In this document: positions 1,996 to 52,164 of the stretch, piece by piece
How the letters are laid out: each line of letters starts with the position of its first letter
Numbering within the stretch: position 1 is the stretch's first letter
IMG/VR virus record: IMGVR_UViG_3300040801_001975
Location: 1-52,164 of that record
Length of the DNA stretch: 52,164 bases
Direction: 5' to 3' (one strand)
From: a virus
Notes under the pieces: generated by a model
Database searches by the model: none
Told to the model about the DNA's origin: nothing
The model's input: the letters and a program-made list of their open reading frames with translations, nothing else
Translations under genes and position numbers: made by a program

Positions 1996-2834
1996 GCGAC
2001 CAACATTATAGTCCTGTCCCCGGTTTCGAGGGAGAAACAAGGCCCATTTCTAATGAGCGGGTAGAGAACTATGATGTTATCTTTCGGCATGATCATGCTT
2101 TGATGAACTATTTTACTTTCTGGATGCCCTTCAGAGATAAAACAACAAAAAACATGCGTGAACAGCTTGTTCCTATGGTGTTTGCTACGCCACGAAGAGA
2201 ATGGTCGGAGAATGACTTCAACGCTAATGATGAAGAACGATACACCGCTATGACTTGGGAGGGAGAGTTTGAGCCTACTCAGTTAGAACGTATAGGGTAC
2301 CCCTCTATTGCTGTAACTAGGCTCGACATAAGTTTTGATCAAGTTCGTTGGACCTATGCTCCTTGGCGTAGACTGCTTTATTCTAATGACTTGAATTTAA
2401 TTATGGAGTCTAACTTTCCATTACCTTATAATTTTAGTTATCAATTTGATTTTTGGGTTCTAGAACAGGGACATTTAAACATCATGATGGAACAGTGGGC
2501 ACGTAAATTCCCTAGACCGACTCATTGGCTGGATGTTCAATATCCTCCGCCATGGGGCGTGCAAACAGTTCATATGCAAGGAACCCCGGTATTCTCAAAT
2601 ACCTCTATCTTAGAGGGTGGAGAGCAACAAAGAGAGCTTAGAGGTGTTGCTACTGTTAATGTCTTTGGGTGGATTCCTCTTCCTCCAAGATGGGTACGAA
2701 CAGTCCAGAAGGTAAGTCTTGATATGATTGATGATTTCTCACAAGAAATTCTTGAAACTTACGAGACTGAACGAGCCAGTAAACAGAAATTCTGGGAAAC
2801 TGGAGATAAAGAGCAGGTGTTAGTATGGAAGTAA
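1992..2834 (+). CDS. tail sheath stabiliser / tail completion candidate (gp15-like position)
   Basis: A 280-residue, aromatic-rich protein with repeated Tyr/Trp/Phe clusters and few Lys. It follows two neck genes and a gp10-like gene, where T4-like phages carry gp15, the protein that caps the tail tube and stabilises the sheath. Segments such as VATVNVFGWIPLPPRWVRTV fit the beta-rich terminator fold of that family, but no motif is diagnostic. It starts with an ATGA overlap and ends 10 bp inside the following gene, so it is translationally coupled on both sides. The role is inferred from position and composition. Confidence 0.45.
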   Translation: MSDQHYSPVPGFEGETRPISNERVENYDVIFRHDHALMNYFTFWMPFRDKTTKNMREQLVPMVFATPRREWSENDFNANDEERYTAMTWEGEFEPTQLERIGYPSIAVTRLDISFDQVRWTYAPWRRLLYSNDLNLIMESNFPLPYNFSYQFDFWVLEQGHLNIMMEQWARKFPRPTHWLDVQYPPPWGVQTVHMQGTPVFSNTSILEGGEQQRELRGVATVNVFGWIPLPPRWVRTVQKVSLDMIDDFSQEILETYETERASKQKFWETGDKEQVLVWK

Positions 2835-3829
2835 AAAGGGATAACACAGATAGAAGAACCCCCTCTGCCATTACAGTGGCTAAGAAACATGGGATTTCTT
2901 TATCTCGTCTCCGGAAGCAGCTTGCTATGGGAGCTAAGATCGAACGGGAGCATACTCATAGTGACTCCAAAGCAAGAGAGATTGCTCGTGATCATCTAGC
3001 TGAGATCCCAGACTACTACACTCGTTTAAAGAAGATGGAGAGGGAAGCAGGTGTAACTGAAGCGGTTAATACTAGAGCGCAATTAATGCATAAGTTGAGG
3101 AACATGAACCAAAGACCAATGTTTCCTAAGCAAAAGAACCGAAAAATACCCTATGTGCATCGTGCTACGGGATGGCAAGCATGGTTAGATATAACTCCGA
3201 ATGAACAATATAAATCTCAGAAGCATGATCCTTTAATGCGAGCCCTACTAGGGATTAAGAAGGCTAAAAAAAAGCAGAAAGAACCGCTTTTTTCCCCACA
3301 ACAAAAGTGGATACCTGAATCCTATATGGGTGACCCTTTTGAAAAGAAGCATCAAGAAAATAAACGTAGGTGGGGGAAAGATAAGAAAAAAGAAATCCAT
3401 CGGTTTAAAAAAGAGACTAAGCGTCCTGATGTAAAAGAAGCTTGGGTAGACCCTCTAGAAGTGTTACACAATGCTAATAGAGCGCGAATTCTTCAAGGAG
3501 CCAAAGAAGGAAAGTATTGGCTCTTACGGTCAGAAGGCATAGAAGAAGCTCGTAAACCTTTAAAATATAAATATTCTACAGTATATAAGGATGCTACTTC
3601 AGCGTCTTCTGGAGGCGGTATGCGAGAAGATGAACGCGAATATATTATTAGGCGAATTATGGAAACGACTACCACGGGAGCTATTGGTGGTTACCCTAAA
3701 CCCATGATGGGGGATCAGGGAGACCCAGCTTTTGGGGGTAGAAATCGGTTTACAAAGGAACAACTAGAGTTCGCAATTGCTAGATTATTAGGGGGAGGTA
3801 AGAAATCTCTCCACCCTAGGGTAATATAA
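2825..3829 (+). CDS. DUF5661-like basic protein
   Basis: A 334-residue, strongly basic protein. Residues about 20-75 match the DUF5661 pattern: a short helix (KHGISLSRLRKQLAMG) and IEREHT, then a conserved IARDHLAEIPDYYTRLKKME. That domain occurs in many phage and bacterial proteins and its activity is unknown to me. The rest is Lys/Arg-rich and low in hydrophobic residues, with GGG stretches near the C terminus, as expected of a nucleic-acid-associated or packaged protein. The start overlaps the previous gene by 10 bp. Its place among virion genes suggests it is carried in the particle. Confidence 0.6.
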   Translation: MEVKRDNTDRRTPSAITVAKKHGISLSRLRKQLAMGAKIEREHTHSDSKAREIARDHLAEIPDYYTRLKKMEREAGVTEAVNTRAQLMHKLRNMNQRPMFPKQKNRKIPYVHRATGWQAWLDITPNEQYKSQKHDPLMRALLGIKKAKKKQKEPLFSPQQKWIPESYMGDPFEKKHQENKRRWGKDKKKEIHRFKKETKRPDVKEAWVDPLEVLHNANRARILQGAKEGKYWLLRSEGIEEARKPLKYKYSTVYKDATSASSGGGMREDEREYIIRRIMETTTTGAIGGYPKPMMGDQGDPAFGGRNRFTKEQLEFAIARLLGGGKKSLHPRVI

Positions 3830-4238: not shown

Positions 4239-6080
4239 ATGGCCGTTTATGTTTCCCCAGGTGTTTACGTTCGTGAAGTAGACCTATCACTGTATATTCC
4301 TGCACTGTCTACAACTATTGTAGGTATGGTTGGAACATCCAATAAGGGGCCGACTCAAGCACGTACCTATGTTACAAACCAACAGCAGTTTATTGATGTG
4401 TTTGGTGAGCCTGACCCCACTATTGGTTTTGAGACCTATGCAGCCCTTCAGTATCTGCGCCAAGGTCGCCAGCTTTGGTTCGTTCGTGTGACTGGACCGA
4501 GTGCCGCAGCCGCTGATCTAACGCTATTCTATGCAGAAGCCCAAACTCAGGAAACAGCGCACACTGGTCCTGACGGGGTACTTCTGACTTTTTCTAGCGC
4601 TGACGTTGATGGCGCTGTAATCGCCAATACTCCGATCCATCCGGGGTCTGTTCTGTTCACTGTAACTATTGGTGCTACAGAGTATGAAATCCCTGATGAT
4701 GGCGAGGGCGTGCTTACTCTGACAGACCCAGGACTCACAGGGACAGTTACAGGTACTGTTGATTATGACACTGGTGCTTGGACACTTACTTTCGTTGCTG
4801 GTGATGAACCAGATGATACTACTGATATTTTGGTAGACTACGCTATTCCTTCGGCTGCTTTTGTTGTTGAAGCTCTTAGCGCTGGTGAGTGGGGCAACAA
4901 CATTTCAGTCAATATTGAAGCAGGTACCCAGGGGTCTTCTTCTCGGGTGGTTGTTTTCTATGAAGGAAACGTTGTCGAGCGGTTTGACAGTGTAAACCTT
5001 GATGACACCAGCGAGCGGTTTATTGAAACTGTTATCAATGAGGCTTCAGATTTTATCACTGTTACACTGGCGGCTGGTTTAGCAGGGGGATCAACTGAGC
5101 TTCCTCTTGAGTTTATTACTCCAGAGCTTCTAACAGGTGGAACGACTGATGCTGCCAATATTACCCCAGCGGATATCATTGGTGAAGCTTGGGATACCGG
5201 GTTACAACAACCGACAGGTATGCAACTCTTTGCTTCCCCGGCTGCGGTAGACATTAACTTGCTTGCGGCTCCAGGGTGGTATGACATTGGTGTTGTTAAC
5301 GCCATGATCCAACTTTGTGAGGCTCGTGCGGATTGTATGGCAATTGTTGACCCGCCAAACGATCTAACTCCGCAAGAAGTTGTAGACTGGCACAATGGAC
5401 AGGGAGCTTGGGCAGGACAACATGCTGCTTTGAACAGTTCTTATGCAGCACTGTACTACCCGTGGGTTCGTGTGTATGACAACTATAATGCCAATTATGT
5501 GTATACCCCACCATCTGGGCACATCTTGGCCGTATATGCATATACCGACTACTCAACAGAAACTTGGTTCGCTCCGGCTGGTTTGACTCGTGGTCGTGTG
5601 ATCTCGGGTGTGGATGTAGCCTACGGACCAACTCCTGGCGAGATGGATCTGCTGTACGGTGATGGCAACGCTGTGAACCCAATTGCTCGGTTTACAAAGG
5701 ATGGCATCGTGGTTTGGGGACAACGTACCCTGCAACGTAAGCCAACCGCTCTTGACCGGGTTAACGTTCGACGGCTGATGTTGTATCTCCGCAAGGTACT
5801 GTCAACTTCTGTTCGTTACCTCGTTTTCGAGCCTAACGACGAGAAGACTTGGAATCTGTTTGGGCATCTTGTGGTGCCTTACCTTAACGAAGTTCGTCAA
5901 CGGCGTGGTCTGTATGACTTCCGGGTAAAGTGCGACGAAACTACCAACACCCCGGCAGTGATTGACCGTAATGAACTTCACGCCCAAATCTTCTTGAAGC
6001 CTGTTAAGGCGGCTGAGTTTATCCAGGTTGACCTGGTTATTACTTCAACGGGTGCGAACTTTGACGAAGTTCTCTACTAG
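4239..6080 (+). CDS. contractile tail sheath protein
   Basis: A 613-residue tail sheath protein, the subunit that contracts to drive the tube into the cell. The N terminus VSPGVYVREVDLS and the segments IVGMVGTSNKGPTQ and YAALQYLRQGRQLWFVRV are classic sheath signatures. The C-terminal part (RVNVRRLMLYLRKVLSTSVRYLVFEPND and PVKAAEFIQVDLVIT) is the conserved sheath core. Residues about 108-203 are an inserted beta-rich module (GPDGVLLTF ... IPDDGEGVL ... GTVDYDTGAWTLTF ... ILVDY) also found in three other proteins of this window; it probably decorates the outside of the sheath. A good GGAGG precedes the ATG. It is more GC-rich than the neck genes, as is common for abundant proteins. Confidence 0.93.
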   Translation: MAVYVSPGVYVREVDLSLYIPALSTTIVGMVGTSNKGPTQARTYVTNQQQFIDVFGEPDPTIGFETYAALQYLRQGRQLWFVRVTGPSAAAADLTLFYAEAQTQETAHTGPDGVLLTFSSADVDGAVIANTPIHPGSVLFTVTIGATEYEIPDDGEGVLTLTDPGLTGTVTGTVDYDTGAWTLTFVAGDEPDDTTDILVDYAIPSAAFVVEALSAGEWGNNISVNIEAGTQGSSSRVVVFYEGNVVERFDSVNLDDTSERFIETVINEASDFITVTLAAGLAGGSTELPLEFITPELLTGGTTDAANITPADIIGEAWDTGLQQPTGMQLFASPAAVDINLLAAPGWYDIGVVNAMIQLCEARADCMAIVDPPNDLTPQEVVDWHNGQGAWAGQHAALNSSYAALYYPWVRVYDNYNANYVYTPPSGHILAVYAYTDYSTETWFAPAGLTRGRVISGVDVAYGPTPGEMDLLYGDGNAVNPIARFTKDGIVVWGQRTLQRKPTALDRVNVRRLMLYLRKVLSTSVRYLVFEPNDEKTWNLFGHLVVPYLNEVRQRRGLYDFRVKCDETTNTPAVIDRNELHAQIFLKPVKAAEFIQVDLVITSTGANFDEVLY

Positions 6081-6089
6081 GCGGATTAA

Positions 6090-7400
6090 ATGGGTAAGTA
6101 TGTTAAAGATTGGCGGGAATTATCTCGGAAAAGTTACAAGCCTTTTCCGGTTAATACCCGCCCTATGGAGCCAGAAATTAAAGCTACTGCTGAAAAAGCC
6201 TATTTGAAAGCTTCCCCAGCGATCAAGAAAGCGCTTTTGAAGAAGTACTTAAAGCGGCGACAGGTAAAAGAATCTTTAGTTGAAATGAGGCTCCTCCCCA
6301 GAGACTACGCAAGGGTCCGAGCGGGGGAGCATCTTTCCCATCTAGAAAAATTTGCCTCAATGGGGAAAAACGTTGCACGTACAAGTAAACGAGACATCCG
6401 AGGACTTATAAAACAGCAAAAGATGCGTAGTGATGCCGATCCAAGAATGAGGGGAGCTAAGATTCTTGACAAATCCGGTCTCTATCACTATGTATCTTCA
6501 GACAAACAGAAGAAAGCAAAGTATTTTCTAGGTCGAGAACAACGGGCCAAACGGCTTCAAGCGGCTTATGCTAAAGACTTGAGCTATAAAATTGGAGCAG
6601 GAGCCCTCGGTGCCGCAGCTTTGAGTAAGGGGATGCGTGCGTTCTCTAATTGGCGAAACAAGGCGCGTAGGCCAATTTATCACCGGCAATATGACGTATA
6701 CCCAGAACATGGGTATGCTGCTGTAGGCATTCAACCGTATAACCAGCCATATTATGATGAGCCAATGCAGAGATCTGGGCCTCCAACACATGTTCGGGCA
6801 CAAATTGGTGGTGGAATTTATGAAGCTAAGGATTCTGCCCCACGACTTATAGTAAAGGCTCCTCGGTATAAAGCTCCGGCGGTAACTTACGCGGATATCA
6901 TGGCACATAAAAAAGCTCGAAGAAAATATCGTAGAAATAGACTAATTATTCGGGGAGCATCTACTGTAGGAGGAGCAGCCTACGGAGCATTAGTAGGTAA
7001 TATATACGGCCCCGCACTAGGGGGTCTGGCTCTAGCTAAAGCCGTAAGACCACTAACAAAGGTTCGACAAATCCCTGTTGTTAAAATAGATGCTACCCAA
7101 CCGGGGCGACCCAAGGTTACATTTGGCCCAGAACGAGAAACAAGACGGATACTAAACCCAGATAAGGTAATGCATATTGCCCGTAATCTGAGGACGTATT
7201 CCACTTACGGGGGTGCCGCTATTGGGGGCACACTAGGTTTCTCGGGCGCTCCAAGTTCTGAGATGGTAGGAGCCTCTAAAAAAGTATTAAAATATGCTAA
7301 ACAAGGGGAGAACTATCAAAGGAAAGAAGCGGAAGCGCGGGAAAAACATAAAAAAGAGTTAGCTCAATATGAACGACTTATGCAGAATTTATCTCAGTAG
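6090..7400 (+). CDS. basic Gly/Ala-rich protein, possible packaged and processed protein
   Basis: A 436-residue, very basic protein of unknown family between the sheath and tube genes. It alternates Lys/Arg-rich stretches with two Gly/Ala-rich hydrophobic segments (about residues 167-183 and 288-318, e.g. IGAGALGAAALSKG), with a third near 373-390. Two sequences fit the pattern hydrophobic-x-Glu used by phage prohead proteases: SLVE/M at about 65 and GIYE/A at about 245. The same signature and architecture recur in the 825-residue leftward protein at 48194-50671. That resemblance suggests an internal or ejected virion protein, but no function is demonstrated. Confidence 0.55.
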   Translation: MGKYVKDWRELSRKSYKPFPVNTRPMEPEIKATAEKAYLKASPAIKKALLKKYLKRRQVKESLVEMRLLPRDYARVRAGEHLSHLEKFASMGKNVARTSKRDIRGLIKQQKMRSDADPRMRGAKILDKSGLYHYVSSDKQKKAKYFLGREQRAKRLQAAYAKDLSYKIGAGALGAAALSKGMRAFSNWRNKARRPIYHRQYDVYPEHGYAAVGIQPYNQPYYDEPMQRSGPPTHVRAQIGGGIYEAKDSAPRLIVKAPRYKAPAVTYADIMAHKKARRKYRRNRLIIRGASTVGGAAYGALVGNIYGPALGGLALAKAVRPLTKVRQIPVVKIDATQPGRPKVTFGPERETRRILNPDKVMHIARNLRTYSTYGGAAIGGTLGFSGAPSSEMVGASKKVLKYAKQGENYQRKEAEAREKHKKELAQYERLMQNLSQ

Positions 7401-22531: not shown

Positions 22532-23782
22532 ATGGCTTTCCCTGTTATTGGTTCAACTACGGTTTGGGAAAATTGGAACAACTTTGGTGCCGGAGCCTGG
22601 AATATGTGGTTCATGGCTCCATATGGTTCATGGTGTTACTCTGCTTTTGTGAAATCGGATGTAACGTATTTCAAAAAGATTAACATCGGAACTAGTGATG
22701 CCAACTATGAGATCTCAGATTGGGATTTTGGGATTGTAACCCCTTCCCCGGCTGATGTGTTTTCAGCCGAACAGGATGACGGTTTCCCAAATGGTTCTAT
22801 GGGTCTTGGTTGTATTCGTGGGGCTACTCCAAAGCTATACCTCGGGGGTAGAGTATCTACTGTTCCTACTATTGCAGACGCCATAATCCATCGGTTTCTT
22901 GTAGACGATGGGTTTATCCAAGAAGATCTTAACAGCCTAACTCCCATGCTGGGAGGCGTGGTTCTTTCTGTTAACCAGCTTTGTGGTATTGAAGTTGACC
23001 AAGGAAACGCTGTTTATCTCATTACGAACAACAACAGCGGATCACTGTTTACTCTAATGCGCTATGATTATGCTTATTTTGATGGTGGGGCTCATAATCC
23101 TACACATTTTGTAAATATGACTCCGCAATTTCTTGAAAATACTACAGCTTCTAAAATTAGGGGGATTGGTCGTTCTAGTGACGGGCATATCCTTGTGTTT
23201 GCTAACACAGGACTTACAACTACTGAAACCAGGGTATTTAAGTTTGATAAAGATAACCTAGACTATTTAGGACAGACAATCTGGTCCCCAAATATATCTA
23301 CTGCTACCTGGGCGTATATGATACAGCACGCAGATGTTTTCCTCCATTTTCAGGGTTTGGACAAAACCAGTTTGTATGATTGGAAGACGGCGGTTTACTA
23401 CGACCGTGCTACAGGAATCCCGGATGAAAATAAGAGTAACTTTATCATCGAAGATAACCTTACTACTTTTGGATCAGATACGGCAATAGAATTGATGTAT
23501 GAAGCTCGGGATGCTTTTAATATTCGTGTTCCAGGAGCCAACACAAAGTTTGTAATTGATGGTGAAGACCCTGAGGCTGAAAATACTTGGACAGATCGTG
23601 TAGGAGGCATTCAGGCAACCCCTGGTGCTACTTTCTTTGACGGTAATGGGATTCCATTAGCTATCCAAACAATCGTTCCTACAGATGTTCTAGGTGTTGC
23701 TAAAGCTTATTATAAACCGATGCGCTCAGGTACTGGTACAGCCCGAGACGCTATTAACGTATTCTGCCCTTCGGATAACTAA
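22532..23782 (+). CDS. unknown aromatic-rich tail protein
   Basis: A 416-residue protein with no recognised family. The N terminus is unusually rich in Trp and aromatic residues (VWENWNNFGAGAWNMWFMAP). The middle has repeated strand-turn-strand patterns (AVYLITNNNSGSLFTLMRYD, HILVFANTGLTTTETRVFKF) that could be blades of a beta-propeller, though no repeat is clean. It starts after AAGGAG, and its TAA overlaps the next ATG (TAATG). Position between gp6-like and tail-protein-I-like genes suggests a peripheral baseplate part. Confidence 0.6.
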   Translation: MAFPVIGSTTVWENWNNFGAGAWNMWFMAPYGSWCYSAFVKSDVTYFKKINIGTSDANYEISDWDFGIVTPSPADVFSAEQDDGFPNGSMGLGCIRGATPKLYLGGRVSTVPTIADAIIHRFLVDDGFIQEDLNSLTPMLGGVVLSVNQLCGIEVDQGNAVYLITNNNSGSLFTLMRYDYAYFDGGAHNPTHFVNMTPQFLENTTASKIRGIGRSSDGHILVFANTGLTTTETRVFKFDKDNLDYLGQTIWSPNISTATWAYMIQHADVFLHFQGLDKTSLYDWKTAVYYDRATGIPDENKSNFIIEDNLTTFGSDTAIELMYEARDAFNIRVPGANTKFVIDGEDPEAENTWTDRVGGIQATPGATFFDGNGIPLAIQTIVPTDVLGVAKAYYKPMRSGTGTARDAINVFCPSDN

Positions 23783-26331
23783 TGGCTTTTTGGTGGGAAC
23801 CTCTTCCAGGCATTAAATTCTACGTAGATGAAAACTACGTGGATGAGAATGATGTCAGTTATGGTCTGCTGTATGCAGAAGAGGGGAAACCTTTATACAA
23901 TGCGAACTACAGCATTGGTCCTGTTTATGCTAAAGAGGTTGCTTCTGCTCGTGGTGTGATAAACATCATTGATGACCAGATCACCCTTCAGAATACAGTG
24001 TACCTGTACCCCCCAATGTTCCTGCAAGGGAACGTCTCTCTTATTCGACCATATGAGGTTGCCCAAGATCAGGGGTACATCTGGATTGAGTTAATCACTC
24101 AGACATATTTCCAAAATACTCTTCACCAGTACATTCCTTCTGAGTACTGGAGATTGGACGCCCTTCCAACTACTGAGGGTGGTGGTGGGGGAGCTTTAGA
24201 CGAGTTCACACAGGTTTTTGCAATAACTTTGGATGAAATTAAGCAAGCAGTTGATGACTTTACTAAGATCTTCGACATTGAGCATTGTCCACCAAATTAT
24301 CTTCCGATTATTGCTAAGATGATTAACTACCCGTTAGAAGCTACAGATACAACGGCGGAACAAAGAAGACAGCTTCGTTCAGCTATTGACTGGTATAAGT
24401 CAAAGGGTAGTCGTAGAGCGTTTAGAGCTATCTTGTATGCCTTTGGTTTTTATACGGAAATGGTTCCTTTATGGACAGAGCATACAGAAGAATCCAGCAT
24501 CCCTGATGAGGATGGAGAACCTCAAACAAATCTATACGAAAGATTTTATGAAACCATTCCAGGAATCGCTAGAGGGAATGACCCCCCAAATGATTACCCG
24601 TTGTTAGTAGAAAATGGGGGGACGTGGTTCCGTAGCCCACACTATGGGATTAAGCTTCTAGGTATCGTTCAAGATAGACACGTAACGATTAACTGGGGAA
24701 TGCTAACTCCAGGAGAAGTGCCGTTAAAAGATGAAGTTGTGTCTACAGAACCTAACGGAATTCTGGACACATTTTCTGGACAACTAGACTATCTGCCGGT
24801 TATTCCAGGTTCCGTAACCATGGATACGTATGTTGTTGGACTACCTGTTGTTATTACTGACGACGGTGCCGGGGTATTAACTGGGGTGGATATCTATGGT
24901 GACCCAATCACGGGGACAATTGACTATGTAACGGGAGAATGGACACTCTCGTTCACCACTGCTCCTACAACTAGTACCATAATCTGTGACTATACCTATG
25001 ATTTCATGGAGTATGTAGACGAAGTTGGGTATCATAGAGCATGGTACAACCGGGTAGACCAGTTGACTTCGGCGGGAGCATTACTCCAGTATTACTTCCC
25101 TATTGAAGCATTCAATTACCTATATCGAAGGATAGAGTTCCTTCGTCCGGTATTCGTGGTGTTGGAATGGCTCTCTTTGGCAATTGAAATGCAGGAACAT
25201 TATGATGTCCCTGAAGGGTCCAACCCTGTTTTGATTGTTAACCCTGTCCGAAAAGATAAGGGATGGTATCTAGGATACTGCGACCAAGACGATATTACCT
25301 ACACTCGGTTAGATCCACGTCTTTTAGGGGAGAGTATGCTTACTTTGGACTCTCCTCTTACCTTCCCTGTGCCGGGGATGACCTATATTACCGATGAAAT
25401 CGTAGGGACATATGACCCGGTTAGTGAAACGATCTCGACGGCCCCAGATGGAATTGAGCTTAACTTCTCTGGTCAGCTTGACTACCCGGTATTCGCAGGA
25501 GCGATAGAGATGACGGCCACTGTAGGTGGCTCCCCAGAAACAATCGTTGATGATGGTGTGGGTAATCTATCTGGAACAGGGATTACCGGCACAATCCAAT
25601 ACAACACCGGGGAGTGGACATTAGTCTTCACAATAGCACCGACAGGGACTATTGAAGGTGTTTACCGTAGAACTCTTGTAGAAGGAGAACTTCTAAACTC
25701 TTGGATTTTCCCGAATGGAGTGACGCTAACTTTTATTATTGGCGGGTCACCGTATGACCTTACGGATGATGGTGAGGGTGTTTTAAACCGCAATAACCAA
25801 GAAGTTACAGGGCTTATTGACTACCTTACTGGGAAGTGGACTGTAACTTTTGATGCAACTCTAATCCCTGATGATGGGTCATTCATTGTTGTAGACTACT
25901 TTTTTGCAGATGACATCCCACCAACAGACCGTTCTGGGGCACTTCCTAGAGGCTCTACAGAGCTTCCTTTCCCCCACCTACGTGATCCCCAAGAGGGGTA
26001 TTGTCACCCACCAGAAGATCTTCTAGTGACGGTTGGGGCTATTCTTCCCGATCCGTACCAATTACCCCTAACTCGGGATGGTTTAAATCTCTACCCACCA
26101 GCGGGTCCAGTGCCTTATATTGACCATGCAGATTTCCCTTCCCGTGGGTTTACTGACTTATTAGGAAACCCAAGACATGCAAACACATTTACCCGAGAAT
26201 TTGGGTATTCGGATCGCCCGCTATCTTTATTGAGAGTAGAGGTTAATCCGGTTCCTGCCGCAGAAAACTGGGAAAACCAAAGCGAACCGTGGGAAACCTG
26301 GATTGGTCCATGGGAGAACATAGGAGATTAG
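23782..26331 (+). CDS. tail protein I-like baseplate/fibre-connector protein with three added beta modules
   Basis: An 849-residue protein. Residues about 140-225 carry the tail-protein-I pattern: helices (DEFTQVFAITLDEIKQAVDD), CPPNYLPIIAKMINYPL, RRQLRSAIDWYKSKGSRRAF and AILYAFGFY, as in P2 gpI, which links baseplate to fibres. Three copies of the window's recurring beta module follow, at about 322-406, 553-629 and 636-709 (each with DDGxGxL, a G-T-I-x-Y-x-T-G-x-W-T-L core and a final D-Y or V-Y). These probably project outward. The remainder is unassigned. TAATG overlap at the start; the next gene begins 1 bp after the stop. Confidence 0.75.
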   Translation: MAFWWEPLPGIKFYVDENYVDENDVSYGLLYAEEGKPLYNANYSIGPVYAKEVASARGVINIIDDQITLQNTVYLYPPMFLQGNVSLIRPYEVAQDQGYIWIELITQTYFQNTLHQYIPSEYWRLDALPTTEGGGGGALDEFTQVFAITLDEIKQAVDDFTKIFDIEHCPPNYLPIIAKMINYPLEATDTTAEQRRQLRSAIDWYKSKGSRRAFRAILYAFGFYTEMVPLWTEHTEESSIPDEDGEPQTNLYERFYETIPGIARGNDPPNDYPLLVENGGTWFRSPHYGIKLLGIVQDRHVTINWGMLTPGEVPLKDEVVSTEPNGILDTFSGQLDYLPVIPGSVTMDTYVVGLPVVITDDGAGVLTGVDIYGDPITGTIDYVTGEWTLSFTTAPTTSTIICDYTYDFMEYVDEVGYHRAWYNRVDQLTSAGALLQYYFPIEAFNYLYRRIEFLRPVFVVLEWLSLAIEMQEHYDVPEGSNPVLIVNPVRKDKGWYLGYCDQDDITYTRLDPRLLGESMLTLDSPLTFPVPGMTYITDEIVGTYDPVSETISTAPDGIELNFSGQLDYPVFAGAIEMTATVGGSPETIVDDGVGNLSGTGITGTIQYNTGEWTLVFTIAPTGTIEGVYRRTLVEGELLNSWIFPNGVTLTFIIGGSPYDLTDDGEGVLNRNNQEVTGLIDYLTGKWTVTFDATLIPDDGSFIVVDYFFADDIPPTDRSGALPRGSTELPFPHLRDPQEGYCHPPEDLLVTVGAILPDPYQLPLTRDGLNLYPPAGPVPYIDHADFPSRGFTDLLGNPRHANTFTREFGYSDRPLSLLRVEVNPVPAAENWENQSEPWETWIGPWENIGD

Positions 26332-29200: not shown

Positions 29201-29749
29201 ATGGATTTATATGATCACATTATGGTTCCTGAGGGATTTTTCCAGCTTCATGTTTACGATGCTCCAAGTGGAAAACTTGTAGACTATGTCGAGGGGCACA
29301 ATATTGTTGTAAATGATGGTCGTGAAGCTTTAGCTAGGCTACTAGGGAACCATGATCCTATTTTGAACCCTCCACCATCTGGGGTAACTAGCTGGTATGT
29401 GGACACGTTGTCTTTTGGAGACGGAGGACATGACCCCGATAATATTGGTGACCAAACAATTATGACCCCCGTATTAGTAACAGATACTGATCTATACGGG
29501 ACCAAACATATCAGTAGGCCAGTGACAGTTAGCTGGCCGTCATATCGTAAGGTTGTTTTTGAAGCCACCGTAGAATCAACTGAAGGGAACCATCCTTCTC
29601 CCCCAGCAGTTAACGAGTACTCTGAAGCTGGGCTGTTCTATGGGGATACTCCAGGAACAAGTACGGTTATGTTTGCTCATAAGTCGTTTGGTTACGTAGT
29701 TAAAAACGAAACTATCCGATTGGTGGCAACGTGGACCTTCACCTTCTAG
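29201..29749 (+). CDS. virion-associated fibre/baseplate protein, unknown function
   Basis: A 182-residue protein. The pattern 'vegHNIVVNDGREALARLL' at residues 31-50, a central TLSFGDGGHDP, and a late PAVNEYSEAGLFYG then VVKNETIRLVATWTFTF match a family of small phage tail proteins ('..Nlv...g...la.lL....i..i.fGdG...' and 'sE.GLf......k....l...W.f.f'). I cannot name its activity. A TTGGAGG lies eight bases upstream of the ATG. The next gene overlaps its end by 19 bp. Confidence 0.6.
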   Translation: MDLYDHIMVPEGFFQLHVYDAPSGKLVDYVEGHNIVVNDGREALARLLGNHDPILNPPPSGVTSWYVDTLSFGDGGHDPDNIGDQTIMTPVLVTDTDLYGTKHISRPVTVSWPSYRKVVFEATVESTEGNHPSPPAVNEYSEAGLFYGDTPGTSTVMFAHKSFGYVVKNETIRLVATWTFTF

Positions 29750-32223
29750 TCGAGGCGCGAAAGCGGTCTACCCGACAGAGGGAAAATCAACGTGCAAGAC
29801 AACAACATCTTGGACGAGAAACTAAAACTGTAGGTTCGCTTGGTTGGCGTAGACGAGTTGTGTACATCATGCGAGATTTACACATGCCAACCAATCAACA
29901 GCGGTTAGCCATGTCTATTCTAAACGAGTTAGAGAAGAAGCATGGGGCTGAGTATCTCAACACACAACCGACAGACGCACTTACTAACACTCTTAAAGCT
30001 TTTAAGTTAGACTTTCAGAGAGCAGAAAGAGTTGTTTCCCCCCATCATGTCCGCCCAGGAGTTTCTGGAGTGTATCGTTCTGGGGGGAGATTAACTCAAC
30101 GGTCTAGTTTAGAGCGAAAAGGGGTTCTTGATCCGAGTAAGCCACCGAGCAGTGAGCAACTTCGGATGAATATTGCCCATATTCGAACTAGCTCAATGAA
30201 AAGGCATGAGTTAGCTACTCATCCACATCCAGATGTTCAAAGGCTATACCAAGCTATCAATCCACATAAAGAAAAAATGCGGAAAGATACTGCCGTTGTA
30301 TGGACATCGGATGATAAACCCTTTTATATCTTTGGGAGGATCACAAAACCTGTTCATAGAACCTCTATGGGTAAGGATTACAACATTCTATTTCCTCGGG
30401 CATATGACTACCGAGGAGGGAAAAGAACGATCCCTCTAAACCGTTTGGATGACTATGGGCGGTGGACAAAGTGGTATAACGTAATGCGTTCTAAGGATTT
30501 GTTCAAACTTACTAGATCGCATGAAGCTAAACCGATAGTTTTAAAAGGTAACTTTGACACAGTCATTAGAAAAGCACAAGAAATTGCTTGGGATGAAGCT
30601 AAAGATTTCTACAACACCTACCAAGATTACAAAAAATCCAAAGCAGCCGTGGAAGCCCTAAGAAAGATGTACCGATTGCCGACTGGAGAGCATAAACAAA
30701 TGCCCCCAGAGCATAAGAAAGTACACGATATTGCTTGGGGTGTTTGGCAAGCCGCAGAGGACAAGCTAAAAGGAATAACGCCTAATCATTTAAAAGGCGA
30801 AGCAGCGGAAGAACACCGTAAAAGACTATCCCGCTTAGGGGATAGCTATACATGGTACTTATGGCTTTTAGCCGCAGAAAATCAGTATGGTGTTCGCCTT
30901 CCCGAACGGCAAAAATTGCCCGAGAATGCAAAGTACCCGCATGTTATAAACCCCGTTCAACCGCAACCACAGCATTGGACTATTCAGCCTACAGGTAGAG
31001 AAGAGATCCCACGCTGGGAAGCCGATGTCCTTAGAGGGATTGGATTCTCTCCGGCTGATTTTCGTTCTTTTGAGGTGGCCCTACAGAAATCCGGATATAA
31101 ACTAGGTTACCAAGGGAACAAAGCTATTACACATCTTTGGGTGCCCTTAACTGGAGAACTCATTAACCAATATGGGTTAGATGTTTCTCCTCCAGATATA
31201 AGTGATTATGTCAAAGATGCTAATAAACAACATTCGACTGACTATGTTGTTGGTCGGACTGGTAACAAGGTTGATGTACAACATGATCTACCTATCCCCC
31301 AATATAAATTTAACGGGGGAAATCCAAGGCGAGAATTTTCTTTAATTCCTGCTATTGACTACCTTAGATACTTTGACTCGCCTAAACATGGTGGAGCTAG
31401 ATTAGTTCACGGCCAGCGTTTCTTTGAAGAGCCCCCTAAACGATCCAGAACAAAAGCAGATGATGCTAGTCGTTATAGTGGGATGTCTCGGAAAACGCGA
31501 GAACGAAGTCAAAGTTACCAAATGCGAAAGTATGGTAGATCAGGAATTAGCCCTCGATTTGCATACGATATGGAACGAGTTCGAGCAGATAGAGAAAAAA
31601 TTGCTCGTGAAATCGCTGATAGGATGCTTCAACAACCTATAAAGGATGCTCGTGCCGCAGTTAGCATACGTAGTAAGATCCTTCAAAGACAGAATCTTTC
31701 TACAATTTTACCTGGAAGACGAGATGTTACACACATTTGGCGTGCTCCAGAAAGAACACGAGGCTTTATTCATAGTAAATCAGGTATGTGGGAACTACCC
31801 ACTACCGGCCCGGTAATGAAAACAAAAAGGCATCCTGTTACTGGGCAACTTATGAGAGTTCGCAGACAGCCGATACGGAAACGATACGTTATAAGAAGCA
31901 CGGGTTTCCGCCCTGCCAAAAAACCAGTTCCGGTTACTAAATATGAATTTCATGCTGTTCCAAGACAAGCAATCGCTCCCACTTGGGAGGAGTACTGGGA
32001 GAGCATAATTTCTAGACCAAGGAACGTAACCATTGATGGTGAGACATACACAACGGCGGATGTAGAAAGACATAAGAATGATTATAAACGAGAATACGAT
32101 CAACGATTACGTGCCTTTATTAGAAAAGCCCATTCTAAGGGATTTATTGTTATTGATGGGACCGATGATCGCTATGAGTTAACTCTCGAAGGGAACACGA
32201 TTACTCGGGTAGAGCGCCCTTAA
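29731..32223 (+). CDS. large basic protein of unknown function
   Basis: An 830-residue, Lys/Arg-rich protein with no recognised domain. The start given is GTG 29731, overlapping the upstream gene by 19 bp; ATG 29869 is an alternative that drops a very basic N-terminal segment. The middle has Trp/Tyr-rich helical stretches (DYGRWTKWYNVMRSKDLFKL, AWGVWQAAEDKLKG), and residues about 710-750 are again highly basic. It lacks membrane segments and signal peptide. With the basic proteins at 2825, 6090 and 48194 it forms a set of large, basic, unrecognised proteins, possibly packaged with DNA. Confidence 0.5.
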   Translation: MDLHLLVEARKRSTRQRENQRARQQHLGRETKTVGSLGWRRRVVYIMRDLHMPTNQQRLAMSILNELEKKHGAEYLNTQPTDALTNTLKAFKLDFQRAERVVSPHHVRPGVSGVYRSGGRLTQRSSLERKGVLDPSKPPSSEQLRMNIAHIRTSSMKRHELATHPHPDVQRLYQAINPHKEKMRKDTAVVWTSDDKPFYIFGRITKPVHRTSMGKDYNILFPRAYDYRGGKRTIPLNRLDDYGRWTKWYNVMRSKDLFKLTRSHEAKPIVLKGNFDTVIRKAQEIAWDEAKDFYNTYQDYKKSKAAVEALRKMYRLPTGEHKQMPPEHKKVHDIAWGVWQAAEDKLKGITPNHLKGEAAEEHRKRLSRLGDSYTWYLWLLAAENQYGVRLPERQKLPENAKYPHVINPVQPQPQHWTIQPTGREEIPRWEADVLRGIGFSPADFRSFEVALQKSGYKLGYQGNKAITHLWVPLTGELINQYGLDVSPPDISDYVKDANKQHSTDYVVGRTGNKVDVQHDLPIPQYKFNGGNPRREFSLIPAIDYLRYFDSPKHGGARLVHGQRFFEEPPKRSRTKADDASRYSGMSRKTRERSQSYQMRKYGRSGISPRFAYDMERVRADREKIAREIADRMLQQPIKDARAAVSIRSKILQRQNLSTILPGRRDVTHIWRAPERTRGFIHSKSGMWELPTTGPVMKTKRHPVTGQLMRVRRQPIRKRYVIRSTGFRPAKKPVPVTKYEFHAVPRQAIAPTWEEYWESIISRPRNVTIDGETYTTADVERHKNDYKREYDQRLRAFIRKAHSKGFIVIDGTDDRYELTLEGNTITRVERP

Positions 32224-47167: not shown

Positions 47168-48193
47168 ATGGCTCGGGCAACTAAACCGGAAAAAGTTATC
47201 CGTTTATTGGATAAGGTTTGGCCGGGTCACCCAGTGGAAAAGCAGGGGCAAGAACATATGGTTGTCTGCCCCTTTTGTGGTACAGAGAAAAACAAGTGTG
47301 CTGTAAATCCAGAAAAGGGCGTTTTTCAGTGCTGGGTATGCCAAGAGCGTGGTCCTATTTTAAAGCTCTTAACGCATTTATATAAGCTCAAGGTTATTAG
47401 TAGGCTGGATATAGAGGCAGTTAAACCGGGCTCACAGGTAAAGCTGTCTGACGTTATTAAAGTTATCAGCCCAGTAAAAAAGGCTGACAAGGTTTTGTGG
47501 ACGCCTACTGTCCCCTGCGTGTTTCCTCCTAAGACATATGCGTTGGAGTGGTTTACCCCTCACAAGCTTGCTGAGGAGAAAATGCACCACCATGTTCTTG
47601 ATTACTTGTACGGTAGAGGGTTAACTGAAGATGATATCACTCGTTACCGGCTACATTTTTGTTTTAATATTGGCTCCCCATACCACGGGCATGTGTTCAT
47701 TCCTGCGTTAGGGGTGCATGGCCGACAGGTAGTCTACTGGACCACCCGGTCTACGCTTCCGAATCCCCAACCCAAGAGCCTACATGCTGGGAAGAAGTAC
47801 TCCCGCTATTCTGCGAAAAATGTCGTTTTTAATGAGCATTTGATTGCAGGTACAACAGTTGCCTTGTGTGAGGGGCCATTTGACGCCTTTTCTATCATGG
47901 GAGTAGTGAACATGCCTGCCATTCCTCTTTTGGGGAAGCAGTTCCATGCATATCATAAAGATATTTTGCTCGATAAGGGCATTAAACGGGTCTACGTTTG
48001 CTTGGACCCCGATGCCAAGGACGCCCAGGCCAAGATAACCCGCTCGCTCGTTAGAGTGGGCATAGAGCCGTTTTATGTGGATTTACAAGAGGGTGACCCG
48101 AATGATATTTCCCCAGAAAAATTATACGCAGCCTTTAAACAAGCTGCGTATAAAATGGATGACCCTCTTGGAGATCTGTGTAAGAAATTCTAG
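47168..48193 (+). CDS. DNA primase with zinc finger and TOPRIM domain (gp61-like)
   Basis: A 341-residue primase making RNA primers for lagging-strand synthesis. The N-terminal zinc-binding domain has C34-P-F-C37 (VVCPFCGTEKNKC) and C55-W-V-C58 (FQCWVCQERG). The TOPRIM domain shows ALCEGPFDAFSIMG (catalytic Glu, about 238) and VYVCLDPDAKDAQ (the D-x-D pair). Both are standard for phage and bacterial primases. It starts 1 bp after the helicase stop. Its TAG abuts the TTA that is the reversed stop of the next gene, so the two genes converge with no gap and no visible terminator. Confidence 0.9.
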   Translation: MARATKPEKVIRLLDKVWPGHPVEKQGQEHMVVCPFCGTEKNKCAVNPEKGVFQCWVCQERGPILKLLTHLYKLKVISRLDIEAVKPGSQVKLSDVIKVISPVKKADKVLWTPTVPCVFPPKTYALEWFTPHKLAEEKMHHHVLDYLYGRGLTEDDITRYRLHFCFNIGSPYHGHVFIPALGVHGRQVVYWTTRSTLPNPQPKSLHAGKKYSRYSAKNVVFNEHLIAGTTVALCEGPFDAFSIMGVVNMPAIPLLGKQFHAYHKDILLDKGIKRVYVCLDPDAKDAQAKITRSLVRVGIEPFYVDLQEGDPNDISPEKLYAAFKQAAYKMDDPLGDLCKKF

Positions 48194-50671
48194 TTACCAA
48201 TCCCTGCCCTCTGCACTATTCCAACGGTAATCCCACTCACGTTGTTCAGCAGGAGTAAGCTTTAGTTTTTTTCTTTCTTTTCTGGCTTTTGCGATCTTGT
48301 CTAGTAAAGCGGCGTATTCTGGATCTTTAGTTCCAGTTTTTCTTTCATCGGCTTCTTTAACCATTTTTGGAGCTTGCCACCAAGGGGCGCTGTAGTCTAC
48401 CCTTTTCCCGGTGAATTTTTGAACGGGTTTTGTGGCAAGGTCTGCAATGACTCTAGTGGTTTTAGTTAACGGCTTAACATGGATATCTTTAACGAGTTCC
48501 CCCGTGTCTAAATATCCCATTTCGTTTAGCCCCTCTTGACGTAGTTGACGTAGAGAGTATCGTAGATCTTGTTCCGCTGCTTTGCGTGCGTCAATGTAGT
48601 TTACATACGCTGCATGTTTGTTATATTTGGCCCTTGCTCGATTAGCTTTCTTTGCATGAAGTTTTCGTCGGGCTTTTCGGCTCCTTCTATTCCATAACCA
48701 TTTAGCCGCTAGTGCTCCGGATATAGCACCTCCGCCAAGAAGAGCGAGTTGTACAGGGTTCATTTCTTCAAGAGATTCATTGGTTTCGTTGCCGTGAATA
48801 TCTCCTCGTTTGTATTTGCTCGCTTTTTTGTGCTTGGCGTATTGTTTGCCCTTTTGGAGAACGGCGTCAATATAAGCGTTTCGTTGATAGTGGTACCAAT
48901 CCTTAGCGTTCTTTATGCGGTTGATTTCAAAGGGAGAACGTGCTGCGGGAGCTACATCCTCTTCGATTCCGCCCAGCTTCCTCTCTAAAAGATTGGCTGT
49001 GGGTTCATGGCAGCTTGCCCAACGGTGTCCTCTATCAATCCGGTTAAGTCTCCGGTTTTGCTTGGCAATTTTCTTTTGACGGCGGTAACTACCCCGTTCA
49101 ATTCGTTGTCCAACTCGATTACCAACAGCAGTTCCTACTTGCTGAGCACCAGCAGTAGCGGCTGCTTTACCAGCTTCTTTATAAACTGCTTTGGCTGTAT
49201 CACTTTTTAACGCGCCAGCGGCCACAGAAGCCCATCCTTCATAGACAGTATCGGCTGCGGAGGAGATAATATCTTCTGTTCTTCTCTTTCGGCTTAGAAG
49301 TTTAGAAACCCCCGTAGTTGCTAGAGCACTTCCGGTTTCTTTGGCAACAAATTTTCCTGCTTTTCTACCCATGGGACTTTTTGCAAGGGAAACGGCTCCT
49401 CGTGCAATAGCGGGTAATGCTCTGGCGGCAGCGGCAACAAGGGGTGCCCATTCGTAGATGTTATCAGCGGTATTGTTGATAATGTCTTCAGTTTTCATAT
49501 TTGTCCTCGCCCTGTTTCTTCTTTGTGCCCATGCATCTTTGTAGGTTTGTTTAGCATCTCGCCATATTTTTTCTCTCTCGGGTTGATACTTTTTCCAGTT
49601 TGTTCTGAACTCGTTGGTGATATCACCAATAGTTTGTGCATGACGGCGGATATCGCCACCATATTTGTACCCGAGATATCCTGCACCAGCTAGAGCAGCC
49701 AGTCCAAGGGCTTTCTTTATAATCCCCTCATAAATAAAGTTAGCGGAGTCCTCAATAAGGTTATCAACGGCCATAATATCGGCGTTTTGTTGCTTTTTCT
49801 TTGTGTTGGTTTGGTTTACGGCTCGGGCTTGAAATTTGTTTGCTCCAAGCCCAGCAACATTCACTTTGTCCTGAGCCATGCCTCGGAGAATAGAAACATG
49901 TGCATGGAAGGGCTTGTGAGCAGCAAGGTTTTGGTGCCCCTTTTGGGCTATTCTTCTGGAAAGTGGCGAGTGTTCTGTAGCCCCTGGAACTTCGCTGGCT
50001 CCTTCATAGAATTGGTAGCCTGCTCTTCTACGTCTATAGGCTTCTGCGTTTCTGCGAGTTTCTTCAGCGTAGTTTGGATCACGCATTTTGAGTTTATGAG
50101 CAAGCCAATGGGAGCCTACGTCAGCAGCAGCTTTGGAAGCGATACCACCAAGGATACCAACACCAGCAGTGATGTAGGGATGTGCTTTAGCAAATTTTCG
50201 GACGTGTGTTCCAATGATTTGTTGGTTTCCCGCATAGAAATCTAGTGCTTTTTGTGCTTTGGGGCCATATTTTGTAATGATTTCTTTACCTTTTTGGGTT
50301 TTCATTATCGCGGGTTTGACATACTGAGCAAAGTTTTCTGCTTTACTCTGAGTGAAGATGTTCTTTGCGGTCTTTTTTGCCGTGTCGTAGTTTTCTTTCC
50401 ACCCCTCTGAAAGACCCTCTGATCGTAGTCTTCTGGCCCTTATTTTGGCATATTTTCTTTCCCTGTTTTCAATATCGCGTAAAACAAGGCTATCTTTTAT
50501 GCGTGCTACTTTAGGAGCCATATACTGGTGTACAAAATACCCCTCAGCCCCTAGAGCATAGGGGGCATATTTATCTGTAAGCTCATCCCTCTTGGCTTTT
50601 CGTAGGGCTTTTCTGATCCTTTTAGCCATTTCAGGGTCATTAAGGTTAACTTTGTATCCTTCGTGAAGCAT
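48194..50671 (-). CDS. 825-residue basic protein, candidate packaged polyprotein
   Basis: The only leftward gene. Start codon complement at 50669-50671 follows AGGAG. The protein is very basic with several Gly/Ala-rich hydrophobic stretches (ALGLAALAGAGYLGYKYGG at 321-339, LALLGGGAISGALAAKW at 642-658). Seven places fit hydrophobic-x-Glu with a small, Met or Trp residue next: GLSE/G 89, QFYE/G 223, FIYE/G 315, NIYE/W 407, TVYE/G 478, SLEE/M 636, GLNE/M 717. Sites 315, 407 and 478 share a repeat (EDS-, EDII-, EDII- then AD/AN and [IV]YE) followed by Ala/Gly hydrophobic helices and then basic sequence. This is the pattern of a precursor cut by a prohead protease (T4 gp21 favours L/I-x-E). The function and the protease are not shown in this window. 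Confidence 0.6.
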   Translation of the reverse strand: MLHEGYKVNLNDPEMAKRIRKALRKAKRDELTDKYAPYALGAEGYFVHQYMAPKVARIKDSLVLRDIENRERKYAKIRARRLRSEGLSEGWKENYDTAKKTAKNIFTQSKAENFAQYVKPAIMKTQKGKEIITKYGPKAQKALDFYAGNQQIIGTHVRKFAKAHPYITAGVGILGGIASKAAADVGSHWLAHKLKMRDPNYAEETRRNAEAYRRRRAGYQFYEGASEVPGATEHSPLSRRIAQKGHQNLAAHKPFHAHVSILRGMAQDKVNVAGLGANKFQARAVNQTNTKKKQQNADIMAVDNLIEDSANFIYEGIIKKALGLAALAGAGYLGYKYGGDIRRHAQTIGDITNEFRTNWKKYQPEREKIWRDAKQTYKDAWAQRRNRARTNMKTEDIINNTADNIYEWAPLVAAAARALPAIARGAVSLAKSPMGRKAGKFVAKETGSALATTGVSKLLSRKRRTEDIISSAADTVYEGWASVAAGALKSDTAKAVYKEAGKAAATAGAQQVGTAVGNRVGQRIERGSYRRQKKIAKQNRRLNRIDRGHRWASCHEPTANLLERKLGGIEEDVAPAARSPFEINRIKNAKDWYHYQRNAYIDAVLQKGKQYAKHKKASKYKRGDIHGNETNESLEEMNPVQLALLGGGAISGALAAKWLWNRRSRKARRKLHAKKANRARAKYNKHAAYVNYIDARKAAEQDLRYSLRQLRQEGLNEMGYLDTGELVKDIHVKPLTKTTRVIADLATKPVQKFTGKRVDYSAPWWQAPKMVKEADERKTGTKDPEYAALLDKIAKARKERKKLKLTPAEQREWDYRWNSAEGRDW

Positions 50672-50863: not shown

Positions 50864-50948
50864 GTTGGGGGATATAGTTTCGGATATCCTGCAAAAACGC
50901 CGAGATTCAGTCTCAAAAAAATTGTAAATTATTGAAAACATTGAAGAT

Positions 50949-50977
50949 TTGACAAATCCCAAATTCGAGGCCATTAT
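50949..50977 (+). promoter_or_regulatory. sigma70-like promoter for the GC-rich right-hand genes
   Basis: TTGACA (50949-50954), 17 bp, CATTAT (50972-50977). The predicted start near 50984 is 3 bases before the first helix of the structured leader described next. Confidence 0.5.
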
Positions 50978-50983
50978 GGATTC

Positions 50984-51210
50984 ATGGACGAGGTGCGTCC
51001 GCGCCTCGCGCAGCAGAGCCGAAGGCTCTGCCCCGGAGTACCGCGAGGGGTTCTCTGTGTAGTGGTGCCAGCTTGTGGGAGACCTCGTCTCGTCGTCTGT
51101 CCAACGTTCCCCCCATAAATGCACTTTTGGTGCCCCTGGTGCGTCCACGCTTGCGTGGACGCTGGGGGGCAGATTCGTCAACGGCTCGAAGAACGCCCAT
51201 GGAGGTTTGT
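50984..51210 (+). ncRNA. structured leader RNA
   Basis: A 5' region with nested perfect helices: GACGAGGT (50987-50994) with ACCTCGTC (51082-51089); CCTCGCG (51004-51010) with CGCGAGG (51042-51048); GCAGAGCC (51013-51020) with GGCTCTGC (51024-51031) over a GAA loop. A separate hairpin GCGTCCACG (51141-51149) / CGTGGACGC (51154-51162) has a CTTG tetraloop and an outer TGCCCC (51131-51136) / GGGGCA (51166-51171). No T-run follows, so they are not terminators. It precedes the gene at 51211 and may be its riboregulator or a distinct RNA. Structure by eye; function unknown. Confidence 0.5.
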
Positions 51211-51567
51211 ATGTCTGGTAAGTTCATGACCTTCAATTCCGGTTGCGGCATCTACCTTGTCCTCCCCAACGGTTACTCGCTTTCGGTGACTTGGATGGAG
51301 GGCACCCACAGTTCGAACTATGACGAGCACATCGACCTTGGTGCCCTCAATGCCGAGGACAAGTGCCGCCAGGACGCCCAGAACGCCTACACCGCTGCCC
51401 TGGCTGCGTTCGGGGAGAAGGGTGCCGAGACCGTCGAGATCCTGATGCGGAACGCCCAGGGTGAGGCGGTGGACATGGACGGCTATACGGACGTGGACCC
51501 TGAGGGCTACTGCACCGTGGCGAAGTTCGCTGCCATGCTCGTTTGGGCGCTCTCGCAGACCGAGTAG
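51211..51567 (+). CDS. small GC-rich unknown gene
   Basis: A 118-residue acidic protein. SGCGIYLVLPNGYSLSVTW at about 9-27 resembles small phage proteins of unknown function with a 'ngytlSVqw' beginning followed by N-Y. The rest is Ala/Glu-rich and ends in a helix (VAKFAAMLVWALSQTE). Start ATG 51211 lies five bases after GGAGG; ATG 51199 is in frame but contains the ribosome site. Codons nearly all end in G or C, unlike the genes to its left, suggesting a different origin. Confidence 0.6.
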   Translation: MSGKFMTFNSGCGIYLVLPNGYSLSVTWMEGTHSSNYDEHIDLGALNAEDKCRQDAQNAYTAALAAFGEKGAETVEILMRNAQGEAVDMDGYTDVDPEGYCTVAKFAAMLVWALSQTE

Positions 51568-51577
51568 TAGCACTGAG

Positions 51578-51625
51578 ACGATACTTCCCAGTGCCCTTTA
51601 CGGGGAGGGCACTGCATAGTGTCGT
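51578..51625 (+). other. stem-loop between the two GC-rich genes
   Basis: ACGATACT (51578-51585) with AGTGTCGT (51618-51625), one G-U, then a 3x3 internal loop (TCC/CAT), then CAGTGCCCT (51589-51597) with AGGGCACTG (51606-51614) over TTACGGGG. No T-run. A processing site or mRNA stabiliser is possible. Confidence 0.55.
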
Positions 51626-51650
51626 CATGGTGCGATTATCAACCTGAACC

Positions 51651-51665
51651 GGGGGATGTTCCCCC
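51651..51665 (+). other. small hairpin just before a ribosome site
   Basis: GGGGGA (51651-51656) pairs with TCCCCC (51660-51665) over TGT. The AAAGGAG for the next gene begins 3 bases later, so the hairpin leaves the site exposed and could guard the 5' side of the mRNA. Confidence 0.55.
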
Positions 51666-51680
51666 AGAAAGGAGCCTTAA

Positions 51681-52040
51681 ATGGCTTCCCGTAACTTCAA
51701 CCTGTTCGCCCGTCTGTATGTGGACCGCAAGACCGCCGAGGGCGCGGTGTACACGAAGGAACTCATGTCCCTCCGTGTGAGCGAGGGTTGGACCCACATC
51801 CCCCTCGTGGCCGAGGCCCTCTCGAAGCTGGTCGAGGGTGGTCGGGTGGACCTGCCGGTTCACTCCGAGGACTTCGACCTCTTCATCGAGGCCATCAAGG
51901 CCGAGCGGAAGAAGGTCCGCAACGTGGTGGCCCAGGACGCCATCGACGCTCTGCTGAAGAGGGCCTACCAGATGCGGAAGTACCGCAGCAAGGCCCTCCG
52001 CAACTCGGTGATCGAGTTGGCCGCTTGGCCCGCCAGCTAA
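51681..52040 (+). CDS. small GC-rich unknown gene with many charged helices
   Basis: A 119-residue protein, mostly helical and Lys/Arg/Glu-rich (FIEAIKAERKKVRNVVAQDA, LLKRAYQMRKYRSKALRNSV). It begins MASRNFNLFARLYVDRKT and has no recognised domain. AAAGGAG (51668-51674) lies six bases before the ATG. GC-rich codon use as in the neighbour. The downstream bases stay open in two other frames, but without a start there. Confidence 0.6.
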   Translation: MASRNFNLFARLYVDRKTAEGAVYTKELMSLRVSEGWTHIPLVAEALSKLVEGGRVDLPVHSEDFDLFIEAIKAERKKVRNVVAQDAIDALLKRAYQMRKYRSKALRNSVIELAAWPAS

Positions 52041-52164
52041 GGCGAAGAACTACAAACTGAAGCTGCAAGTCAGCATCCGGGCCGCTCGCAAGAGCGGCTC
52101 TCTGGAGTGCTCCCGAAAGGGAGCATTGCAGAGAGCTACTAGGCCGTATAAGGCCGGAAAGGAG
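52041..52164 (+). other. right-end region with two GNRA-capped hairpins
   Basis: GCCGCTC (52081-52087) / GAGCGGC (52092-52098) with a GCAA tetraloop, next to TGCTCCC (52108-52114) / GGGAGCA (52119-52125) with a GAAA tetraloop. The second is enclosed by GCTCTCTG (52097-52104) and CAGAGAGC (52129-52136), across a 3x3 internal loop (GAG/TTG); the outer helix competes for the last two bases of the first hairpin. The window ends in GGAAAGGAG, a ribosome site for a gene beyond the edge. Confidence 0.6.

Follow-up and report, generated by a model that had tools for sequence, protein, structure and literature searches.

What would a phage do with a very basic protein of 825 residues whose gene lies on the opposite strand, directly behind a primase gene, and what are the acidic segments repeated inside it? 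The window in which this question arises (the whole stretch of DNA analyzed here, 52,164 bases) comes from an uncultured phage with a contractile tail (G000). Along this 52-kb fragment, neck genes, a sheath gene (4239), a tube gene (7441), baseplate and tail genes, and an amidase-like ORF are followed by genes for an exonuclease, a helicase, a DnaB-type helicase, and a primase (47168-48193), the names amidase, primase, and DnaB-type being our own reading of the sequences. Judging by its sheath and, in relatives, by the capsid protein, the phage is a member of the T4 superfamily, with the Thornevirus SP15 group as its nearest named phages (<60% identity). As an aside on its structural genes, a short repeated segment with the pattern G-x-I-x-Y-x-x-G-x-W-T-L-x-F is present in the sheath (4239-6080), in three copies in a large tail protein (23782-26331), and, by eye, in the capsid proteins of two relatives (G004 and G005); on sequence grounds, it is an inserted domain common to different virion proteins.

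The gene itself appears genuine. Its ORF opens with an ATG about 8 bases downstream of an AGGAG-type ribosome site, and a spurious ORF is ruled out by a position and strand that are kept in six genomes. Just upstream of its start codon (50900-52164), the GC content rises from about 0.45 to 0.60; a chimeric contig end past about 50.9 kb was considered and rejected, since a similar rise follows the gene in all six genomes and thus marks a conserved compositional border. Searches for relatedness returned little: no significant domain in Pfam and PHROG searches of the protein, no Pfam domain in two of its orthologs, no homolog in scans of viral contigs, named phages, PHROGs, and Pfam, and no ortholog in bacterial genomes. 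An AlphaFold model holds isolated helices only (mean pLDDT 41) and is thus unfit for a fold search.

An earlier note on this DNA had described a highly basic chain carrying seven [LIVF]-x-E sites with G, M, or W in the next position, three of which close a repeated acidic segment ending in (I/V)YE, with a Gly/Ala helix and then basic residues behind each, and had read it as a packaged precursor of small, basic, membrane-active peptides. Most of this description holds: the net charge is +76, the three acidic segments are found (table 1), and behind each there is indeed a helix rich in Ala and Gly, then basic residues. The site pattern also stands, with a count of eight instead of seven (E4, E89, E223, E315, E407, E478, E636, and E717), as MLHE/G at the N-terminus adds one. 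The helices, on the other hand, are only moderately hydrophobic, and the best 19-residue hydropathy windows (1.21-1.42) stay under the usual transmembrane threshold of 1.6, which lends little weight to the idea of membrane-active peptides; two relatives reach 1.61 and 1.76, and it is possible that the helices behind the tags insert into membranes after ejection.

Table 1. Positions in the window of the candidate precursor, its tags and candidate sites, and comparable tags in other basic proteins (a slash marks the candidate cut)
Feature	Position	Strand	Remark
Candidate internal-head precursor, 825 aa, net +76	48194..50671	-	Helical, no recognized domain
LHE/G (E4), N-terminal eighth site	50660..50668	-	Unconserved
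Candidate site LSE/G (E89)	50405..50413	-	No clear conservation; basic surroundings
Candidate site FYE/G (E223)	50003..50011	-	No clear conservation; basic surroundings
TNT anchor, residues 288-290	49802..49810	-	TN[TV] in 6/6 orthologs, 10-22 residues ahead of site 1
Tag 1 AVDNLIEDSANFIYE/G, residues 301-315	49727..49771	-	All six orthologs keep I313 and E315
Helix after tag 1 (residues 316-337), Gly/Ala-rich and weakly hydrophobic	49661..49726	-	Best 19-residue Kyte-Doolittle mean 1.21
Tag 2 KTEDIINNTADNIYE/WAPL, residues 393-407	49451..49495	-	Counterparts IYE/IAPV (G004), VNE/WAPL (G003)
Ala-rich helix after tag 2, residues 408-432	49376..49450	-	Most hydrophobic stretch of the protein, 1.42
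Tag 3 RTEDIISSAADTVYE/G, residues 464-478	49238..49282	-	Counterparts MYE/G (G004), IGE/GW (G003)
Candidate site SLEE/M (E636), then Gly-rich helix and Arg/Lys tail	48764..48808	-	Weak G001 counterpart, p ~0.007
Candidate site GLNE/M (E717)	48521..48532	-	No clear conservation
Acidic segment MREDEREYIIRRIME/T (E280), basic protein 2825-3829	3620..3664	+	Hydrophobic-x-E in every aligned ortholog
SLVE/M (E65), basic protein 6090-7400	6282..6284	+	ALVE/M in closest relatives G009 and L001
GIYE/A (E245), basic protein 6090-7400	6822..6824	+	Module end; 4/9 orthologs stop shortly after
N-terminal tag MDLHLLVE/A, 830-aa basic protein (29731-32223, net +60)	29731..29754	+	M1, L6, E8, A9 invariant in five aligned

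Are these motifs more than the by-product of a biased composition? Shuffles of the protein (n = 3,000) yielded a mean of 0.89 sites of the form [LIVF]-x-E-[GMW] and never reached eight, a comparison that is partly post hoc, the G/M/W set at P1' having been picked after looking at the data. The T4 motif [LI]-x-E, which is free of such a choice, shows no enrichment in the protein (9 against 5.7 by shuffling, p = 0.11), so that conservation becomes the deciding evidence for the sites. For the narrower [IVFM][YF]E there is an enrichment, with 4 sites against 0.38 (p < 0.001). Two of the three acidic segments make up the best-scoring internal repeat in the chain (16-mer BLOSUM score 52), and a clear acidic tag is confined to the three segments ending in (I/V)YE.

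In the same place behind the primase, the window and five related phage genomes all have a minus-strand gene for a basic protein. It abuts the primase gene in the window, overlaps the primase 3' end by a few bases in G001, G002, G004, and G005 (ORFs of 432-714 aa), and is separated from it in G003, where a 181-aa basic ORF stands between the primase and a 551-aa basic ORF. Lengths (432-825 aa) and sequences drift fast, and BLAST finds a significant match between the window and G004 (5e-11), the remaining pairs being weak. Looking through primase or DnaB-type neighbors added nothing to these genomes except one near-copy of G002. The orthologs being few and very divergent, their alignment is uncertain away from a TN[TV] anchor; within at most 36 residues of that anchor, I[YFA]E occurs in all six orthologs, for which the product of background frequencies is 2e-7. 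The six-way alignment holds seven invariant residues (M1, P165, A257, T288, I313, E315, and R464), two of which, I313 and E315, occupy P3 and P1 at the first of the (I/V)YE sites; besides E315, none of the 49 Glu of the protein is invariant, and none is kept in at least five of the six aligned orthologs. At site 2, which is not cleanly aligned in every ortholog, the local alignment beats all 300 shuffles for G003 and G002, and the Glu of site 3 is kept in at least four of the six aligned rows. When a matrix was built from the tags of the window and G004 only, the held-out tags of G003, G002, and G001 scored 11.1, 8.1, and 7.6 and ranked among its higher matches, at the anchored place; other proteins reach similar scores, so the matrix counts as support, not as proof.

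The hydrophobic-x-E sites thus appear conserved as one would expect of substrates of a gp21-like protease for site 1 in all six orthologs, for site 2 in most, and for site 3 in part, the other five showing no clear conservation. This evolutionary support seems real for about three of the eight sites; the earlier proposal of a multi-site precursor survives in that reduced form, and the lack of conservation that would speak against it affects the other five. A general test on conserved Glu columns of basic proteins found no preference for a hydrophobic P3 (6 of 24), so the case rests on these particular sites.

If such sites are cut, a protease has to be supplied. In the window, which is a fragment beginning after the capsid gene, there is no protease gene; its relatives are virus contigs reached through the sheath. 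Peptidase_S77, the gp21-like family, is present in 9 of the 16 relatives tested, all above the curated cut-off, and in these nine its gene stands just upstream of a Gp23-type capsid gene. In G004, the S77 domain (PF03420, 3.6e-19) forms the N-terminal part of a 543-aa ORF that matches the T4 gp21 structure (PDB 5jbl) and, for the greater part, PHROG 207 (head maturation protease), the next gene encoding the Gp23-type capsid protein. Stretches with the His and Ser motifs (GELDHP and GISSRGSGS) are kept in all seven aligned proteases. L001, the closest relative (about 75% DNA identity to the left end of the window), has in order the end of the protease ORF, the capsid gene, and the gene with which the window begins, so that a protease gene left of the window, where the earlier note had suggested looking for one, is what the relatives display. 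As for its suggestion that capsid processing sites share the motif, the capsid N-termini of these phages carry conserved LAE/[GS] and LVE/[ST], which agree in motif class and are candidate cuts only. Two side observations concern the protease itself. First, the prohead protease shares its ORF of about 490-545 aa with an acidic scaffold-like tail, in G004 (L042, 12591-14222) as in the rest of the nine relatives that encode it, when gp21 and gp22 are separate in T4. Second, no S77 protease was detected in L017 (G013, 163,716 bases), which has a related sheath and may use a more diverged protease.

The presence of the protease in relatives bears on a reading in which the 825-aa product is an internal head protein that stays uncut, its acidic segments serving only as core docking motifs and its conserved Glu serving binding. 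There is precedent in SPN3US, which has 42 uncleaved head proteins, and in processing that varies among relatives (PMC10052503, PMC5694885), and P1' at the ortholog sites is variable (G, F, A, K, D), whereas N-terminal tags often have Ala there. That P3 and P1 are exactly conserved while P2 is free nevertheless resembles protease specificity, and together with the protease found in relatives it leaves this reading markedly improbable in our view.

Could the protein instead have nothing to do with the head? Its neighbors are a primase, a DnaB-type helicase, and another helicase, with no head genes among them, which we counted against a head precursor; it lies on the opposite strand, and the T4 late promoter TATAAATA occurs at chance, giving no late-promoter signal for the gene. 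A basic DNA-binding or host-takeover product made with the neighboring replication genes, its motif matches otherwise caused, would fit these facts. We give this reading a very slim chance, because the same type of tag is shared with basic proteins whose genes stand among the tail genes or between those for sheath and tube. In the family encoded between sheath and tube (6090-7400 in the window), where GIYE/A and SLVE/M had already been pointed out and are indeed present, L-x-E is found at most N-termini, with G, A, V, or R behind it, and a later acidic segment of REELIE type (GIYE/A in the window) marks the end of a module; five of the nine orthologs go on past it with another basic module, which in four of those five ends in a further acidic segment. 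The hydrophobic-x-E of the acidic segment in the 2825-3829 family is followed by T or D in every ortholog, and L-x-E-A stands at the N-terminus of the 830-aa protein family in six sequences. More generally, 10 of 63 basic proteins have a hydrophobic-x-E-[AG] tag at the N-terminus where 2.4 are expected, and other proteins show no excess (27 of 490 against 33 expected). Several acidic tags like those of the 825-aa protein are among the strongest internal repeats in the basic proteins of this phage group.

Some of these proteins have features of their own. The 2825-3829 protein of the window begins with a DUF5661 domain (E = 5e-17) that is absent from several orthologs, and its conserved acidic segment lies toward the C-terminus. 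G002 (L065) encodes two basic proteins with three and four acidic tags ending in hydrophobic-x-E (106077-107945 and 108560-111238); the tags are near-identical within each protein, those of the former reading EELL...FL[ND]E. Both carry an HExxH metallopeptidase-like motif and one also has DUF5661.

Strongly basic and bearing repeated acidic tags, each closed by a protease-type motif, the 825-aa protein is probably packed in the young head and cut there into several DNA-binding pieces. In our proposal, to which we assign a probability of about 0.6, the product of the 825-aa gene would be an internal-head (core) precursor of a T4-superfamily myovirus, in which the acidic helical tags ending in (I/V)YE act as in-line capsid-targeting sequences. 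Tags and basic body together would recruit the chain to the core of the prohead, around the acidic protease-scaffold protein. Once the shell is complete, the gp21-like protease would cleave behind [I/V/M]-x-E, with three or so positions (E315, E407, and E478) as the likeliest cuts. Cuts at the three tags would give pieces of 35.6, 10.7, 7.3, and 39.5 kDa, all with a computed pI of at least 9.8; all predicted pieces have a pI of at least 9.5, save a 4-residue N-terminal one. Such basic helical pieces, which we infer to bind DNA, would be retained on the packaged genome and may leave with it.

The same cuts could also serve an assembly protein of core or scaffold type, which would build or size the head while its pieces are degraded or leave, with no cargo to eject. 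We hold this to be unlikely: T4 core proteins are largely acidic, when the 825-aa protein is strongly basic, like the T4 internal proteins that stay with the DNA, and an acidic scaffold-like tail is already present on the protease of these phages. In its favor, the rapid drift in sequence and length (432-825 aa) suits a core filler, and T4 offers a precedent in gp22, gp67, and gp68, each cleaved into several fragments, most of which leave the head (PMC9026906). Within the internal-head precursor that we prefer, a more far-reaching version is tentative and somewhat doubtful, namely a true packaged polyprotein whose repeated in-line capsid-targeting tags yield several separate basic internal proteins after cutting, new cargo being built by adding modules behind a tag, with several other basic proteins of relatives (e.g., G002 106077-107945) alike.

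Among known systems, the closest named phages by sheath and capsid belong to the Thornevirus SP15 group (Bacillus phage SP-15, Listeria phage LIS04); LIS04 has, as in the relatives studied here, an ORF of similar length for a T4-type prohead protease before its capsid gene. No match to the 825-aa protein was found in the named-phage collection, this group included, and, unlike the window, the group has no extra ORF annotated between sheath and tube. Polyvalent proteins are likewise multi-part, proposed to be packed in the head, and in some cases processed, but they are chains of recognizable enzyme domains, none of which is detected in the 825-aa protein (Iyer et al. 2017, PMC5512222). The inner-body and ejection proteins of phiKZ and SPN3US are cut after a short x-x-E, with several cuts per protein, although their motif is S/A-x-E, their protease is of family S80, and mostly long N-terminal propeptides are removed. 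With gp22, gp67, and gp68 of T4, an assembly core whose pieces mostly leave the head, the protein would share several gp21-type cuts in one chain, and it differs from them in being very basic.

The nearest parallel in T4 lies with IPI, IPII, IPIII, and Alt: the IPs are basic, a criterion for the mature internal proteins that the 825-aa protein satisfies with its net charge; a gp21-like protease is available (here in relatives); and a short tag ends in hydrophobic-x-E, although no sequence similarity to the four was seen. In T4, gp21 cleaves after L/I-x-E, and propeptides of 10-19 residues target the internal proteins to the core before being removed (PMC9026906). Such an N-terminal propeptide ending in L/I-x-E is absent from the 825-aa protein, which has only an unconserved LHE at residues 2-4; the 830-aa protein at 29731, with its 8-residue N-terminal tag, comes nearer to it. 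Multiple cuts per protein have precedents in T4 core proteins and SPN3US propeptides (PMC9026906, PMC10052503). Whereas every protein that T4 delivers is fused to a single short head-targeting tag at its N-terminus (Alt having a C-terminal cut as well), the 825-aa chain has several tags in its interior, so that we are probably dealing with a multi-tag variation on the known T4 internal-protein theme in which multiple in-line tags are the unusual element. A phage group that strings several tags on one chain would display a modular assembly and diversification of head cargo, and such chains would give a simple sequence rule for spotting unknown injected proteins in uncultured phages.
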